DNA of 5,322 nt, taken from contig MWAR01000391.1 of NCBI GenBank assembly GCA_002068715.1, positions 1 to 5,322 of the forward strand, written 5' to 3'. Below, piece by piece: positions 1 to 5,322 of this stretch. The position numbers and the translations under genes are program-made. Within the stretch, counting starts at the first letter, position 1, and every line of letters starts with the position of its first letter. A model generated the notes under the pieces. The model was given only the letters and a program-made list of their open reading frames with translations, did not search any database and was not told the DNA's origin. Origin of the DNA: a bacterium ADurb.Bin374 (lineage in GTDB: Bacteria > Riflebacteria > Ozemobacteria > Ozemobacterales > Ozemobacteraceae).

Positions 1-2211
1 CGGTTTTTCATCCGGTATCCGCCGTTCCTGCTCGATCTTCCCCTGCCCCGCCCGTCCGTCGAGGTGTCCCCGGACACGCTCGAACGGCTGACGTTCCGGA
101 ATCATCCGGCCGTTCGCGAGTATGTCGGACGAACGGCATATATTCCTCTCTATAACAATGACGATGTCGATTACACGGAGTGGCTCGACGGGCTTGTCCG
201 CGCCAGCCTCCAACCGTCCGCCCACGTTTCGTTCCACGGTTTTCTCTCGTCTTTCGCCGATCGCGAGGCGTTCGAACGCCAGCCCATTCCAAGACTCGTC
301 ACGAGACACGTCGAACGACGTCCCTTCCTTCTCGAACAGCGGCGGATCGAGGTCCTGAACTGGGTCAGGGCACACCTCGACGCGCGCGGTCCGGCGATCG
401 CCGAGGCCGTCATCAGGGTCGCGTTCGCGATGGGGTTCCACGACGAGGTTCTTTCGGGCATTTCCCGGCATGGCGGGCTCCTGTTCAGCGCCGGCAAAAC
501 CGATCTTCTTCAGAAGCTCGTCCGGCGATATCTGAATTCCGAGTTCAGGCTTCCGTCCCGCCTGTTCATCATCGCGGCGAACATCGCCGCCGGGGAAAAC
601 AGGATCGACGAGGGGCTCGCGCTCCTCGACCGCGGCAAATCCTTCTTCGAGGGCCTCGAAGAAGGCGAGGCGGATTTCGGCGACCTCGCCCTGGCCACGG
701 GAGATATGCTGAGACTGTCCGGGAGGCTCACCGAATCGATGGCGGAGTTTTCTCTCGCGCGCGAATGCTTCATATCGGCGAAGCTGCCCGCGAAAATCGC
801 GGAGACGGACGATGCCCTCGGACGACTCATGATCACCCGCGAACGTCCCACGGAAGCGCGACGGTATTTCCTCTCAGCCCTGTCATCGGCATGGTCGTCG
901 CGGTCTGCCCCGGAACAGGCCGGCATTCTCGAGAATCTCGGCCTCGTTGAGCACGATCTCGGGAATTCCAGACGTGCGGCCCTGTATCTGTCGCGTGCGG
1001 TGTCACTCCATTCACTTCTCGGAAACCGCCCCAGAGCTGCATCCGCGGGTCTTTCCCTCGGCATGCTCCATCTTTCGATGGGCCACATGACGAAGGCGTT
1101 TCGCCTGTTCAAGGATGTCCATGCGTCGATGGAGAAAATCGGCCATGCGGGCGGGGCCTGCGAAGCCGCGGCTTATCTCGGATGGACCTGCGATCTTCTT
1201 GGGAAGCAGGGAGCTGCCGTTTCCTGGTGGTCCATGCTTCCGGCATACGGTCGGCTGGAATCCCGCATTCGCGCCACGGTCGAACTTCTCTGGGCACGAC
1301 GGCAGCTCCTTCTGGACGACGTACGGGGGGCCTTATCCTCGCTCCAGGCTCTGTTTTCCAGTGTACAGGGCATCGAACTTTCGAGTTCCGAACTCGGCGA
1401 CATCTCTTTCTGCATCGGTGTCTGCATGGCGCGTCTCGGAATGCCCGATGCCGCGGCAACGCTTTCCCAGAGTCTCTGCAAAATGGCTGCGACGCCGCAT
1501 CGGGTTCAGACACGGCAATCCCGCATTCTCGCGGGGCTTTTGTACCCCGCCGTCGTTTCCGGCCGGCAGGTATCCGAAGACATTCGGCTGTATCCCGGAA
1601 CGAACGGATTCGATCCGTTCTGGTACATCTATGCCGTGCCCCTCGCCGAGATCCAATCCCCCGACTCTTCCGCTCTCCTCACGCATCTCATCGGGAAAAC
1701 CCCGCCCGACCTTCTCTCCGCTTTCCGTCAGCGCGAACGGAGTTTCGACCATCTCCTGAACCTTCGTGAAACCGGAACTTCCCGCGCGGCGCAGTTCGTG
1801 ACGCTCATACGAAGCGGACGGGCGCGCCCGATACATATCGATGATTATTTCATTTGGAAGAGATCCGGCAGGCCCGATGCGTTCACTTTCGACGGACCAT
1901 CCGGTGAGATACGTTTCGGAAGAAGCTCGGCCGTTCTAAAGCCCGGCTCGATTCCCCACAGGATTCTAATTCAGCTGTTTCTCGCTTTTCCCAACCCCGT
2001 CGATTCCGCCTCGCTGTACACGAGTGCCTGGGGGCTTCCCTTCGACCCGGAATGCGACCAGGCAGCCTTCAAGAGCGCCATTCTACGTCTGAACGGCATT
2101 CTCCGGGCCGTGTATCCCGGGGCCTCTCTGATCAGGCCGGTTCACGGAGCCGCCAGCGATCCCCACGTCGTCGCCTTGTCCCTGTCGGGCGCCTGGGAAG
2201 CCGTCATCTGA
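1..2211 (+). CDS. TPR-repeat transcriptional regulator with C-terminal OmpR-like winged helix, MalT-like layout (5'-truncated)
   Basis: Probably a cytoplasmic signal-responsive transcription regulator. The frame is open from base 1 to the TGA at 2209-2211 (736 visible residues). The GTG at 64 has no Shine-Dalgarno sequence, so I treat the gene as cut by the left edge. About nt 270-560 encodes a helical segment resembling the part of MalT between its ATPase and its repeats. Nt 560-1500 holds about seven TPR-like helix pairs, with blocks such as ILENLGLVEHDLGNSRRA and GLSLGMLHLSMGHMTKAF. Nt 1900-2190 aligns by eye with the PhoB/OmpR DNA-binding domain: LKPGS, then SAWG where PhoB has HVWG, AILRLNGIL where PhoB has IRRLRKAL, and IRPVHG where PhoB has VQTVRG. 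MalT itself ends in a LuxR-type helix-turn-helix, so this is a variant architecture. A STAND ATPase upstream is inferred, not seen. It lies just upstream of the secreted-protein operon and may control it. The TPR and winged-helix calls are fairly secure; the MalT relationship is weaker. Confidence 0.8.
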   Translation, partial: RFFIRYPPFLLDLPLPRPSVEVSPDTLERLTFRNHPAVREYVGRTAYIPLYNNDDVDYTEWLDGLVRASLQPSAHVSFHGFLSSFADREAFERQPIPRLVTRHVERRPFLLEQRRIEVLNWVRAHLDARGPAIAEAVIRVAFAMGFHDEVLSGISRHGGLLFSAGKTDLLQKLVRRYLNSEFRLPSRLFIIAANIAAGENRIDEGLALLDRGKSFFEGLEEGEADFGDLALATGDMLRLSGRLTESMAEFSLARECFISAKLPAKIAETDDALGRLMITRERPTEARRYFLSALSSAWSSRSAPEQAGILENLGLVEHDLGNSRRAALYLSRAVSLHSLLGNRPRAASAGLSLGMLHLSMGHMTKAFRLFKDVHASMEKIGHAGGACEAAAYLGWTCDLLGKQGAAVSWWSMLPAYGRLESRIRATVELLWARRQLLLDDVRGALSSLQALFSSVQGIELSSSELGDISFCIGVCMARLGMPDAAATLSQSLCKMAATPHRVQTRQSRILAGLLYPAVVSGRQVSEDIRLYPGTNGFDPFWYIYAVPLAEIQSPDSSALLTHLIGKTPPDLLSAFRQRERSFDHLLNLRETGTSRAAQFVTLIRSGRARPIHIDDYFIWKRSGRPDAFTFDGPSGEIRFGRSSAVLKPGSIPHRILIQLFLAFPNPVDSASLYTSAWGLPFDPECDQAAFKSAILRLNGILRAVYPGASLIRPVHGAASDPHVVALSLSGAWEAVI

Positions 2212-2391: not shown

Positions 2392-3270
2392 ATGTATAAG
2401 TATCTGTTGACGATCGTAACGGTTCTGGTCCTTTCCCTTGTATCCGCGGTGCCGGGTTTTGCGGCTTTCGACGGATACGCCCCCGGTCACAAGCACTTCA
2501 ACCTCCAGACGCAGACCTTCCAGATCGTACGCCAGTATTGGCTCGCGACGGAACTCCTCATCGAATACACGAAGAACCCCACCGATGAGAACATGGCCCG
2601 GTACAACAACTCTCTCGAGATCCATGCCAAGCAGAGCTCCGAGCTTGCGAAGTTCCTGCTCGCGACCCTCGAAGAGAATCTCGATTCTCTCGAAGCGATC
2701 AGCGATATCTACAAATCCCTCGATCCGGCGGCGCGCCGCGCGCTGGCGACGTCTCTCGGCGTCGTGAAAGCGGCGATTGTACAGCAGGTCACGACGAAGA
2801 TTTCCCCCGATCAGTTCCGCGAATACTTCCCCGGCTACGGCTACACCGAGCCCGGATACAAGTACCGCAAGGGCCGCGAAATCGACCGCGAGAACAAGGG
2901 CTCGACCTGGCAGTCCGAAGAGCAGTCGATCCAGACGAATTTCCAGGCCGAACTGACGATCAGTCTCGATCTGCTCGACATCCTCAAAGGCATGGCCTCC
3001 GGCGGCGTCATCAAGAACCTGAAGGTTCATGAGCAGTTCGAAGGTCACATGAACGGCCAGCCGATCCTGCTCGCCAAGGTGTCGTTCCAGGTCATCAAGA
3101 CGATCACCACCCGCACCAATCGCAAGTTCGACGTGAACAAGATCTGGTTCGAACTTCTCCGCGCCAAGTCGAACGGCTGGTCGACGGGCGAGTGGGAAAT
3201 CTGCGGCAAGACCTACGAGATCATCAACGAACCGACCGGTGAAGAAGTCGTCACCAACGTGAAGCAGTAA
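2392..3270 (+). CDS. Secreted protein of unknown family, probably highly expressed
   Basis: I do not recognise the family. The 292-residue product starts with a classical Sec signal peptide: a short Lys-containing N-region, a hydrophobic core at about residues 5-20, and likely cleavage after VPGFA (residue 24). The mature protein is thus probably periplasmic, extracellular or surface-associated. Residues 37-140 look mostly helical, including an IEYTKNPTDENMARYNNSLE stretch. An aromatic Gly/Pro-rich turn follows (145-158, YFPGYGYTEPGYKY), then a charged linker. Residues 184-290 alternate hydrophobic and polar residues and look partly beta, with a single cysteine at 271. No catalytic motif, lipobox, internal membrane helix or repeat is visible. 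Codons are strongly biased to AAG, AAC, ATC and CAG, more so than in the flanking genes, which suggests high expression. The pseudo-subtilase gene follows after 49 bases without an obvious terminator, so the two are probably co-transcribed. Function is unknown. Confidence 0.85.
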   Translation: MYKYLLTIVTVLVLSLVSAVPGFAAFDGYAPGHKHFNLQTQTFQIVRQYWLATELLIEYTKNPTDENMARYNNSLEIHAKQSSELAKFLLATLEENLDSLEAISDIYKSLDPAARRALATSLGVVKAAIVQQVTTKISPDQFREYFPGYGYTEPGYKYRKGREIDRENKGSTWQSEEQSIQTNFQAELTISLDLLDILKGMASGGVIKNLKVHEQFEGHMNGQPILLAKVSFQVIKTITTRTNRKFDVNKIWFELLRAKSNGWSTGEWEICGKTYEIINEPTGEEVVTNVKQ

Positions 3271-3301: not shown

Positions 3302-3312
3302 AAGGAGGAGGG
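3302..3312 (+). promoter_or_regulatory. Strong ribosome binding site for the GTG-started pseudo-subtilase
   Basis: AAGGAGGAGGG contains two overlapping Shine-Dalgarno registers. GGAGG (3304-3308) lies 11 bases and GGAGGG (3307-3312) 7 bases before the GTG at 3320. It supports the non-ATG start and separate translation initiation within the operon. Confidence 0.75.
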
Positions 3313-3319
3313 ACACTAC

Positions 3320-4636
3320 GTGAGAGGCTTCGGTTTTCCGGCTCTGCCGGTAATAGCAGCACTGATTGCCGGGTCGCTCCTGAGCGGCCCGGCGTTCTGC
3401 ACCACCCTTCGTTTCGTCACGACCACGGAATCGGTCGATGCAGAAAGCGTTGCCGAGCGCGTTTCCCGTCTTCCCGACCGCGACAGAGCTTTTGCCGCCA
3501 TTCGCGAGGAGGGAGGACGCGTCGCCGGGGCTATCCGCTCTATCGTCGCCCCACATGATCCCCAGGCTCGCGAAATCTGGTCGGCTCGCGGTGTCACTGC
3601 ACGGCTTTCGAATGACCAGGTCGATCTCTTGAGCGACGAGTGGCCTTCGCTCCGGTTCGAGACGATCGATTCCACCGCCGTCCCCGTTTCGGGCAACGTC
3701 GACGATACCGCCTCCCACCTGACACCCCCGGCCTGGAATCACGTGATGTGCGGTTCCTGGGACCTCTCCCGCCTGCGAAACCTCACCGGAAAAGGCGTGA
3801 TGGTCGCCGTGATCGGCCCCGACGTACCGTTCGATCACCCGGCGATCGCCGAACGCATCATCGCCCAACGAACGTTCGGCGGCGCGCCCGCACGCGGAAC
3901 CGAAGACCTGATGCTCCTTCACCCCCTCGGACTCCTCGCAGGAAAGACCGACGACAAAACGATCGGCACCGCCCCTGACGTCTCCATAGCCCTGGCAACC
4001 CTTCCTCGCGGGAAGGTCGCCGCCGACGATCTTCTGTCGGCCATTCAATGGGCTCTCGAACCCATCGAGGGAACGCGTCCCGTCGCGGTTCTTCTCGCCG
4101 TCGATTTCCAGACCGCGGCTCCACGGGCGATCCGCGATGCGCTTGCAGCCTGCAAAATGGCTGGTATTCTTCCGATCCTTCCCGCTGGGAACACCCCCAG
4201 CCGTATCACCGGCATGGCGGCGCTTCCCGATGTACTGACAATCGGAGCCCTCGACCAGTGGAAGACGCGCGCCGCGTTCTCCGGATGCGGCCCCGCCTTC
4301 GTCGATGGCTACCAGCTCCGCAAGCCCGACTACATGGCCCCCGGTCTCGCCGTTACGGGCCCTGCCGCCGGCAACACCTATCGTCAAGGTTCGGGAACCC
4401 TCCAGGCAGCGGCGCATTTCGCCGGCATCTGGGCGCAGATCCGCCAGTCGAAGCCCGACACGGAAATCGAGACGATCCTCACGACACTGGCCATCACCAG
4501 TCGCGATCTCGGCCCGACTGGCCCGGACAACGATTACGGGAACGGCCTCGCCGATCCGCTCGCCATGCTCCAGTATCTGGAAAATCCGCCGTCCCCACCT
4601 GATGCCTCGGGTTCTCTGCCCGTTCCGCCGCTGTAA
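3320..4636 (+). CDS. Exported subtilisin-fold (S8) pseudoprotease, catalytic triad lost
   Basis: The 438-residue product has a signal peptide (hydrophobic residues 7-22, cleavage around 25-29), then a prodomain-like segment (about 30-116, ending in the VTARLSNDQVDLL type of motif), then a complete S8 fold (about 137-420). The Asp region, GKGVMVAVIGPDVPFDHP, aligns without gaps to the usual GKGV-VAVIDTGVD-DHP, but the catalytic Asp is Gly166. The His region HGTHVAG reads HPLGLLAG (201-208), so the motif is broken. In the Ser region, GTSMA-PHVAG reads GTLQAAAHFAG (359-369), so the nucleophile is Leu361. The oxyanion Asn is kept (PAGN, Asn291), as are MAPG (339-342) and the YGNGLADP end motif (406-413). 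A Pro-rich tail (423-438) follows. The gene is intact, so the loss looks old and selected. It is unlikely to be a protease; a binding, chaperone or inhibitor role is inferred. It is probably co-transcribed with the secreted-protein gene upstream. Confidence 0.88.
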   Translation: MRGFGFPALPVIAALIAGSLLSGPAFCTTLRFVTTTESVDAESVAERVSRLPDRDRAFAAIREEGGRVAGAIRSIVAPHDPQAREIWSARGVTARLSNDQVDLLSDEWPSLRFETIDSTAVPVSGNVDDTASHLTPPAWNHVMCGSWDLSRLRNLTGKGVMVAVIGPDVPFDHPAIAERIIAQRTFGGAPARGTEDLMLLHPLGLLAGKTDDKTIGTAPDVSIALATLPRGKVAADDLLSAIQWALEPIEGTRPVAVLLAVDFQTAAPRAIRDALAACKMAGILPILPAGNTPSRITGMAALPDVLTIGALDQWKTRAAFSGCGPAFVDGYQLRKPDYMAPGLAVTGPAAGNTYRQGSGTLQAAAHFAGIWAQIRQSKPDTEIETILTTLAITSRDLGPTGPDNDYGNGLADPLAMLQYLENPPSPPDASGSLPVPPL

Positions 4637-4650
4637 GGCCCCCTCAGGCC
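4637..4650. terminator. Weak candidate bidirectional terminator between convergent genes
   Basis: GGCC (4637-4640) pairs with GGCC (4647-4650) across a 6-nt loop. The plus strand then reads a T-rich tract (TTCCTTCTTTT, about 4655-4665). The stem is only four pairs, and the T-rich stretch lies inside the end of the opposing gene. Convergent stop codons just 15 bases apart make some termination signal likely here, but this one is marginal. Confidence 0.2.
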
Positions 4651-4651
4651 A

Positions 4652-5322
4652 TCATTCCTTCTTTTCCGGCGGATTTCCTGTAGCGATGTGATTCCCGCCT
4701 TTGCTCCGGGCGTCCTCGATGAGCTTCTCGACGGTTTCGACGAACTGTTCCATGCTCATCGCGTTGTCGTAGGTCGCAAGACCGAAGCTCGCAGTCACAT
4801 GAATCTCGGAGGACTTGTTCGTCAGCTTCTGGGCAGGAATCGCCGTCCGGAGCTTCTCGGCGACAGTCATGCTTCCATCGAAGCCGGTATCGGAGAGGAT
4901 GATGCCGAACTTGTCGCCGCCAATTCGACAGGCGATGTCGTTGAACCGGATATGTCTGCGAATCAGGCTGCCGGTGCGGGACAGCACGAAATCACCTGCA
5001 TCGGTGCCGAAGTTTCCGTTGATCGTTCGGAACCCGTCGATGTCGAAGACGATCAGCGACAGCGGCGACTTCACCCGCCTCGAACGCGAGATTTCCTGGG
5101 CGAGCCGCATTTTGAAATAGTGAGCTGTATATAATTTTGTTAGCCCGTCGGAGATCCCGAGCTTGTAGAGGTTGGCATTCTTGAGGGCGATTCCCAGTTG
5201 GGCGCTCAGGAGACGCGCAAGGTTGAACTCGCGCTCCGTCAGCTCCTGGCCGTCGATACGGTCGGTCAGGGAGATGAGGCCGAGCACCTCCTCCTGGACG
5301 ATGATCGGGATGACGATGAAGG
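4652..5322 (-). CDS. GAF-GGDEF protein with degenerate GGDKF site, likely c-di-GMP receptor (5'-truncated)
   Basis: The frame stays open to the right edge beyond the GTG at 5287. The extra residues, FIVIPIIVQEE, continue a GAF domain that runs through VLGLISLTDR and ends in QLGIALKNANLY. So the GTG is not the start and the N-terminus is missing. A GGDEF domain follows directly. SDGLTKLY stands for the usual D-LT-L-NR, and DIDGF (residues 82-86 from 5287) keeps the metal-binding Asp. An RFND motif (114-117) sits five residues before the signature, the canonical spacing of the RxxD inhibitory site. The signature is GGDKF (123-127), with Lys126 replacing the acidic catalytic residue. The usual AD-ALY-AK is VEKLIEDAR. 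By family knowledge this should abolish diguanylate cyclase activity while c-di-GMP binding may persist, as in PelD, which also joins GAF to a degenerate GGDEF. It is convergent with the pseudo-subtilase and so separately transcribed. Confidence 0.88.
   Translation of the reverse strand, partial: FIVIPIIVQEEVLGLISLTDRIDGQELTEREFNLARLLSAQLGIALKNANLYKLGISDGLTKLYTAHYFKMRLAQEISRSRRVKSPLSLIVFDIDGFRTINGNFGTDAGDFVLSRTGSLIRRHIRFNDIACRIGGDKFGIILSDTGFDGSMTVAEKLRTAIPAQKLTNKSSEIHVTASFGLATYDNAMSMEQFVETVEKLIEDARSKGGNHIATGNPPEKKE

Follow-up and report, generated by a model that had tools for sequence, protein, structure and literature searches.

Within the window, by which I mean the whole 5,322-nucleotide stretch of DNA analysed here, a gene for a pseudo-subtilase, pS8, lies downstream of genes for a TPR protein and for a secreted-looking protein, sec292, and converges with a gene for a GAF-GGDEF protein:

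1..2211, + strand: TPR protein, a probable regulator, 5' end beyond the window (Pfam TPR_12; upstream in 7/7 orthologue loci)
2392..3270, + strand: sec292, a secreted-looking protein of 292 aa (directly upstream of pS8 in 7/7 orthologue loci)
3302..3311, + strand: ribosome-binding site AAGGAGGAGG, 8-11 nt 5' of the GTG (read from the sequence)
3320..4636, + strand: pS8, 438 aa, GTG start, TAA stop (ORF call, Pfam S8, at least 31 orthologues)
3320..3406, + strand: apparent Sec-type signal peptide region of pS8, residues 1-29 (hydrophobic N-terminus, by eye)
3407..3664, + strand: I9-like prodomain, residues 30-115 (strand and helix order in the model; profile alignment from residue 52)
3665..3733, + strand: variable linker, residues 116-138 (low pLDDT, low conservation)
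3734..4585, + strand: S8 fold domain, residues 139-422 (Pfam, AlphaFold model, Foldseek, column conservation)
4652..5320, - strand: convergent GAF-GGDEF protein that runs past the window edge, signature GGDKF (Pfam, conserved locus order)

The order TPR (+), sec292 (+), pS8 (+), GAF-GGDEF (-) recurs at all seven orthologue loci, with the GGDEF gene of locus L005 cut by a contig end. The pS8 frame runs uninterrupted through its 438 codons from GTG to TAA behind a ribosome-binding site, as the original prediction held; this site holds two Shine-Dalgarno-like stretches that overlap, 8-11 nt ahead of the GTG.

The same prediction described an intact protein of the subtilisin fold, and the predicted structure bears this out for the catalytic-type domain. 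pS8 matches Pfam PF00082 (Peptidase_S8) at 58.8 bits, above the gathering cut-off of 21.8 bits, it matches solved subtilisins at E 2.5e-11, and all 31 orthologues found match PF00082 at E up to 1. The AlphaFold model has a mean pLDDT of 86.4, and its residues 134-418 superpose on chains of subtilisin BPN' at 2.2 A, with about 264 of 275 residues aligned. Against whole pro-subtilisins, Foldseek gives an rmsd near 23 A, so the placement of the prodomain in the model is either unlike that of pro-subtilisin or unsure. None of the 31 orthologues found matches PF05922 (I9) at E up to 1, and among seven active paralogues two score above the cut-off, three score below it and two have no match; a profile alignment (HHalign) of orthologues with active paralogues reaches into the prodomain from residue 52 on. 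The linker, which occupies the region where active subtilases cleave themselves, has a pLDDT below 50 at residues 122-133 and a mean column conservation of 0.32. At the N-terminus the model has a helix at residues 8-21 with low pLDDT, and its hydrophobicity was judged by eye across a MAFFT alignment of 29 sequences.

Two homologue searches scored the 7999 and 8000 candidates with the most shared words, so the 31 orthologues found, with identities to pS8 down to 36%, are a lower bound. P0028 and P0029 were removed from this set as active S8 sequences. For comparison, 77 S8 ORF matches were reduced to 56 without duplicates and, after subtraction of seven pS8 sequences and one remnant from genome G020, to 48, which together with P0028 and P0029 make 50 sequences. 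Outside this set, five more S8 loci have intact motifs by pattern reading; of three others, L087 has the Asp and His motifs, and its GT[SAC] motif was not found by pattern reading, L128 has its motifs spread over two frames, and L129 has GTS motifs and one AHG motif only. Active-site positions were assigned from sequence and profile alignments, namely a MAFFT alignment of 29 homologues, one of 81 S8 sequences and an HHalign comparison of the pS8 orthologue profile (n=31) with 15 active Riflebacteria paralogues (probability 99.9, E 2.3e-33, residues 52-420). In BPN' numbering, all three agree on the columns of Asp32, His64, His67, Asn155 and Ser221, and the pS8 positions are as follows, with counts for the 31 orthologues found and the 50 other S8 sequences:

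3815..3817, + strand: Gly166 at the catalytic Asp32 position (Asp in 0/31 orthologues and 47/50 other S8)
3911..3913, + strand: Met198 at the catalytic His64 position (His in 11/31 and 50/50)
3920..3922, + strand: His201 at the structural His67 position (His in 31/31 and 50/50)
4097..4108, + strand: Ala260-Val261-Asp262-Phe263 in place of the Ser-Leu-Gly substrate strand (Asp262 and Phe263 in 31/31)
4190..4192, + strand: Asn291 at the oxyanion-hole Asn155 position (31/31 and 50/50)
4400..4402, + strand: Leu361 at the nucleophile Ser221 position (Leu 30, Val 1, n=31; Ser in 50/50)

All three alignments place Gly166 at the catalytic Asp and Leu361 at the nucleophilic Ser, as was first read from the sequence. 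Conservation of these two residues among homologues had been suggested as a check: Leu361 is nearly invariant, and the column of Gly166 is divided among Gly 17, Ser 9, Ala 4 and Thr 1, without any Asp (the three other S8 sequences that lack Asp have gaps there). The reading of the HGTH motif as HPLG proved to be out of register by three, the aligned motif being MLLH with Met198 at the His64 position. Its substance, the loss of the catalytic His, survives, and this residue is gone from 20 of the 31 orthologues (Met 13, His 11, Arg 2, Leu 2, Pro 1, Ser 1, Ala 1 in the column). His201, first read as at best one residue out of register with the catalytic His, turned out to be the structural His67 instead. 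The reported loss of the SLG strand and the survival of the oxyanion Asn291 are both correct. Across the pS8 family the substrate strand reads Ala or Cys260 (Cys in 19/31), any residue, Asp262 and then Phe263, and the Asp262 column holds Gly in 46/50 of the other S8 sequences.

Judged by the residues of an active S8 enzyme (Asp, His and Ser), the window protein has none of the three, and the 31 orthologues have Asp in none, Ser in none and His in 11. The case of close homologues all with intact triads, which the original prediction named as grounds for its rejection, did not arise, and since all 31 orthologues found lack Asp and Ser, neither a sequencing error nor a recent mutation explains the loss. 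When the 31 orthologues are aligned with the 50 other S8 sequences, their conserved residues give no sign of a rebuilt triad, because active subtilases too have the Ser and Thr residues found near 361. A maintained pseudo-subtilase is well supported by the conservation of the protein, by its codon positions (below) and by the absence of Asp and Ser, and this evidence contradicts the peptidase names under which several members are deposited (S8 family serine peptidase, serine protease AprX, subtilisin family serine protease).

I counted a site as fixed differently where 90% or more of pS8 sequences have one residue and 70% or more of the active sequences have a different one. Eleven sites qualify (197, 199, 262, 286, 322, 347, 361, 362, 364, 365 and 367), and eight of them (197, 199, 262, 361, 362, 364, 365 and 367) fall within the two former catalytic motifs or the strand that binds substrate in active enzymes. 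The family has a new fixed form of the cleft, Asp262-Phe263, Leu361-Gln362 and Ala364-Ala365, and other residues, Trp314 and Pro202 among them, are invariant in pS8 and variable in active enzymes. Columns conserved at 95% or more number 63/282 in the S8 domain, 5/82 in the prodomain and 0/23 in the linker. The variability of linker and prodomain beside a conserved S8 domain argues that the cleft is kept for more than holding the tail of the prodomain. I take this pattern to mean that the old cleft was put to new use and not just abandoned; part of it could be explained by structural constraint alone.

That pS8 is maintained, as originally claimed, is supported by the 31 orthologues and by codon-position identities, which serve here as the measure of constraint because third positions are saturated for dN/dS. 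In seven genome pairs these identities are 0.55-0.73 at first, 0.65-0.83 at second and 0.28-0.57 at third positions, and the neighbours sec292, GGDEF and TPR, like the active paralogue, show a similar pattern where they could be compared. Measured on amino-acid identity, pS8 has changed faster than sec292 in 7/7 pairs and faster than the active paralogue in 6/6. In a tree of 81 S8 domains (quick search; columns 166, 198, 262 and 361 omitted) pS8 forms a single clade with SH-aLRT 100 and a stem of 2.1 changes per column. Its nearest neighbour is P0028, joined via a long branch and untrustworthy in this placement. The 11 members with His198 form one nested clade (support 100) in a tree whose base is poorly resolved, so the His may have been either kept or regained. 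The one stop marked in each of the pS8 matches of genomes G005 and G004 is the terminal stop codon, overrun by the match (ORFs L011 and L014).

A scan of contigs of 84,980 species with two peptide patterns gave seven pS8 loci, all in genomes that share a phylum set with G003 (Candidatus Ozemobacter sibiricus). Within that set 7/39 genomes have an orthologue at E <1e-150, the next S8 protein following at 1.3e-46, and each of the seven has one pS8 orthologue and a second S8 protein with an intact triad. The placeable genomes that carry pS8 are Riflebacteria, an uncultivated group; two of the seven are labelled Erysipelotrichia and Methylomirabilis, and the phylum assignment groups both with Ozemobacter. 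The orthologue P0024, a protein without a genome, is labelled Clostridiales.

Genomes G025-G028 keep TPR, sec292 and GGDEF and lack pS8, and G015 and G016 have TPR and sec292 only. In a tree of the neighbour proteins, rooted on G015, G025-G028 form one clade within the pS8-bearing lineages, so loss of pS8 is the simplest reading for them; G015 and G016 branch outside these lineages, subject to a long-branch warning. In G020, the sister of G003, the gene (L076, ~4648-5200) has lost about 250 codons in frame: signal, prodomain and tail are retained and the S8 domain is gone. The deletion covers residues ~171-423 in the numbering of P0015, and the two matches at the junction overlap by 13 nt; with a single MAG as its source, this deletion could be an error of assembly. 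Nearest to the window is G017 (TPR 78% and sec292 94% identity), which is uninformative on pS8 because its contig ends 8 nt past the sec292 match.

The gene directly upstream, sec292, is spaced 49 nt from pS8 in the window. Of five loci with a + strand call for each of the two ORFs, four have a gap of 11-23 nt; the fifth, L006, has one of 186 nt, and its sec292 match (genome G006) holds a stop near its end. The window sec292 shares 49-57% identity with its counterparts at the seven orthologue loci. A search found 101 sec292 proteins at E up to 1e-5, the named ones mainly from Riflebacteria or Ozemobacteraceae, with two from Wallbacteria and one under a Clostridiales label; the family has no match to a known family in Pfam or NCBIfam, and a structure search gave no clear match. 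An FPGYG stretch is invariant across 61 aligned members, and the predicted structure is helical in its first half and then has strands of up to 25 residues. Genomes G008-G011 have five to eight sec292 matches each.

Well-characterised bacterial pseudo-subtilases seem to be few, and a literature search that did not name Csp returned two papers on Csp proteins and one on PIMMS2. CspC of Clostridioides difficile, a germination protein, is a soluble pseudo-subtilase with an unprocessed prodomain (PMC6636752) and forms a signalling heterodimer with CspA (PMC12880746). Both resemble pS8 in their S8 fold and degenerate triad, and their non-catalytic role, like the unprocessed prodomain of CspC, matches what is proposed for pS8 (PMC6636752; PMC12880746). 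However, CspC retains its catalytic Asp (Asp105; PMC6636752), whereas pS8 is without both Asp and Ser, and Csp proteins have a jelly-roll insertion of ~130 aa (PMC6636752) for which pS8 has no room, its S8 domain of ~285 residues aligning to plain subtilisin. Csp proteins also differ in phylum and gene context. The window protein scores 16.4 of 675 bits against the NCBIfam CspC model and 20.6 of 1250 bits against CspBA; at E up to 1e-3, one of the 31 members matches the former (best 2e-4) and 13 weakly match the latter (best 3.9e-7). It also scores 52.5 bits against TIGR03921 (type VII secretion mycosin), below the cut-off of 278.75, and 30/31 members match that model at E up to 1e-3. PIMMS2 of Plasmodium is a eukaryotic protein with a transmembrane domain and a subtilisin-like domain, described as a potential pseudoenzyme because HGT and GTS motifs are missing, with triad residues present or absent by species (PMC5520436); its likeness to pS8 lies in this degenerate subtilisin-like domain. 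Nearer at hand, the active Riflebacteria subtilases L015-L021 are homologous to pS8 over most of the prodomain and S8 domain and share with it a GP-...-DG-...-KPD stretch, but their Asp, His and Ser are intact and pS8 is a separate clade. No publication on the pS8 family was found among the matches listed for open-licence literature on pseudo-subtilases and on Ozemobacter or Riflebacteria. The family thus appears to be undescribed so far, pseudo-subtilases as such being already known (CspC, CspA, PIMMS2). It offers an independent case of a dead protease: the genomes that carry it also encode an active paralogue, and its unusually remodelled cleft has a fixed set of replaced residues. Its conserved candidate partner gene and apparent natural losses are a means to test what purpose such a protein serves.

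At this point, pS8 is probably a non-catalytic envelope binding or scaffold protein that works with sec292; a role outside the cytoplasm is suggested by the fixed cleft and the secreted-looking neighbour. The explanation I favour, and hold to be rather probable as a whole, is that of a secreted pseudo-subtilase. With an N-terminus that looks secreted by eye, pS8 would be exported and would fold with the aid of its I9-like prodomain, which would stay attached because pS8 should be unable to cut it off. It might then hold a specific peptide, ligand or partner uncut, either in the remodelled groove (Asp262, Phe263, Leu361, Gln362) or on a surface close by. The product of sec292 would be the likeliest partner, to which pS8 would be an accessory that is dispensable in some lineages. 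In favour are the loss of Asp and Ser, the single clade, the fixed cleft sites, the codon constraint, the locus order and the short spacing between sec292 and pS8. The 186-nt spacing in L006, the stop in the sec292 match there and the missing S8 domain of G020, in one MAG, speak against it. The partner step is the weakest, since sec292 occurs without pS8: its presence alone in G025-G028, G015 and G016, and the 101 sec292 proteins set against at least 31 of pS8, make the partnership not obligatory. A bolder version, rather unlikely, is that a subtilisin became a dedicated non-catalytic receptor in one bacterial phylum, independently of Csp, its groove having been rebuilt once into a fixed Asp-Phe/Leu-Gln site for a segment or ligand of the co-encoded sec292 protein, by which envelope assembly or sensing would be controlled.

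Other readings have to be set against this. The presence of at least one S8 protein with an intact triad in 7/7 orthologue genomes, the alignment of the pS8 prodomain with that of an active paralogue, and the retention in G020 of a prodomain without an S8 domain would fit a protein that acts on the active S8 paralogues of its own genome by inhibiting, titrating or chaperoning them, either as a whole or through its uncleaved prodomain. I regard this as unlikely: the prodomain is less conserved than the S8 domain (5/82 against 63/282 columns), genomes without pS8 also encode S8 proteins with intact motifs, and G020 is a single MAG. Somewhat more improbable is a sensor of the CspC type, in which the degenerate cleft or the prodomain interface would sense a small molecule or peptide and signal via a partner. 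The precedent of a soluble, unprocessed CspC and its CspC-CspA heterodimer and the signalling-type genes at the locus (TPR protein, HATPase-GAF-GGDEF protein) lend it some appeal, but the window pS8 scores far under the Csp model cut-offs, the Asp that CspC keeps is absent, and its domain type places the GGDEF protein in the cytoplasm, with no cross-membrane link found.

A new catalytic centre, drawn for example from His198 where present, Asp168, Asp262 or Cys260, would make pS8 still an enzyme. Such a centre could draw on the 11/31 members with His at the His64 position, the invariant Asp262 and the Cys260 of 19/31, but it is very improbable, given that the window protein has neither His198 nor Cys260, each of which further members lack as well, and that the only conserved Ser or Thr residues near the site, such as Thr360, are non-catalytic residues of active subtilases too. 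Least credible of all is a decaying pseudogene or assembly artefact. The apparent loss of pS8 in one clade and its reduction in one MAG might be read that way; against it stand at least 31 orthologues, the constraint on codon positions, the replacement of Asp and Ser in 31/31 and the fixed cleft residues, and such family-wide conservation refutes it for the pS8 family.

Beyond pS8 and sec292, the TPR proteins of the window, L003 and L004 have Pfam matches mainly to TPR families. Their relatives presumably carry an AbiEi-like N-terminal stretch, judged by eye with the copies of L002, L003, L004, L005 and L007 considered, and the C-terminal stretch has a winged-helix look, also by eye. The GGDEF signature was read by pattern at 12 loci (the window, L001-L004, L006, L007, L076 and L078-L081) and has Lys at its fourth position in all 12 (GGDKF, GGEKF, EGDKF); so degenerate a signature makes the convergent neighbour probably an inactive cyclase. 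The relative from L004, the sole one scanned in full, has an N-terminal HATPase_c_2 domain. Past the GGDEF gene, 4/4 loci checked have a gene for a PQQ/BamB-like beta-propeller protein (L004 13288-15240, L007 13656-15509, L003 13444-15687, L001 6815-8695), and after it comes an SH3-TPR protein in 3/3 loci scanned (L004, L007 and L001).
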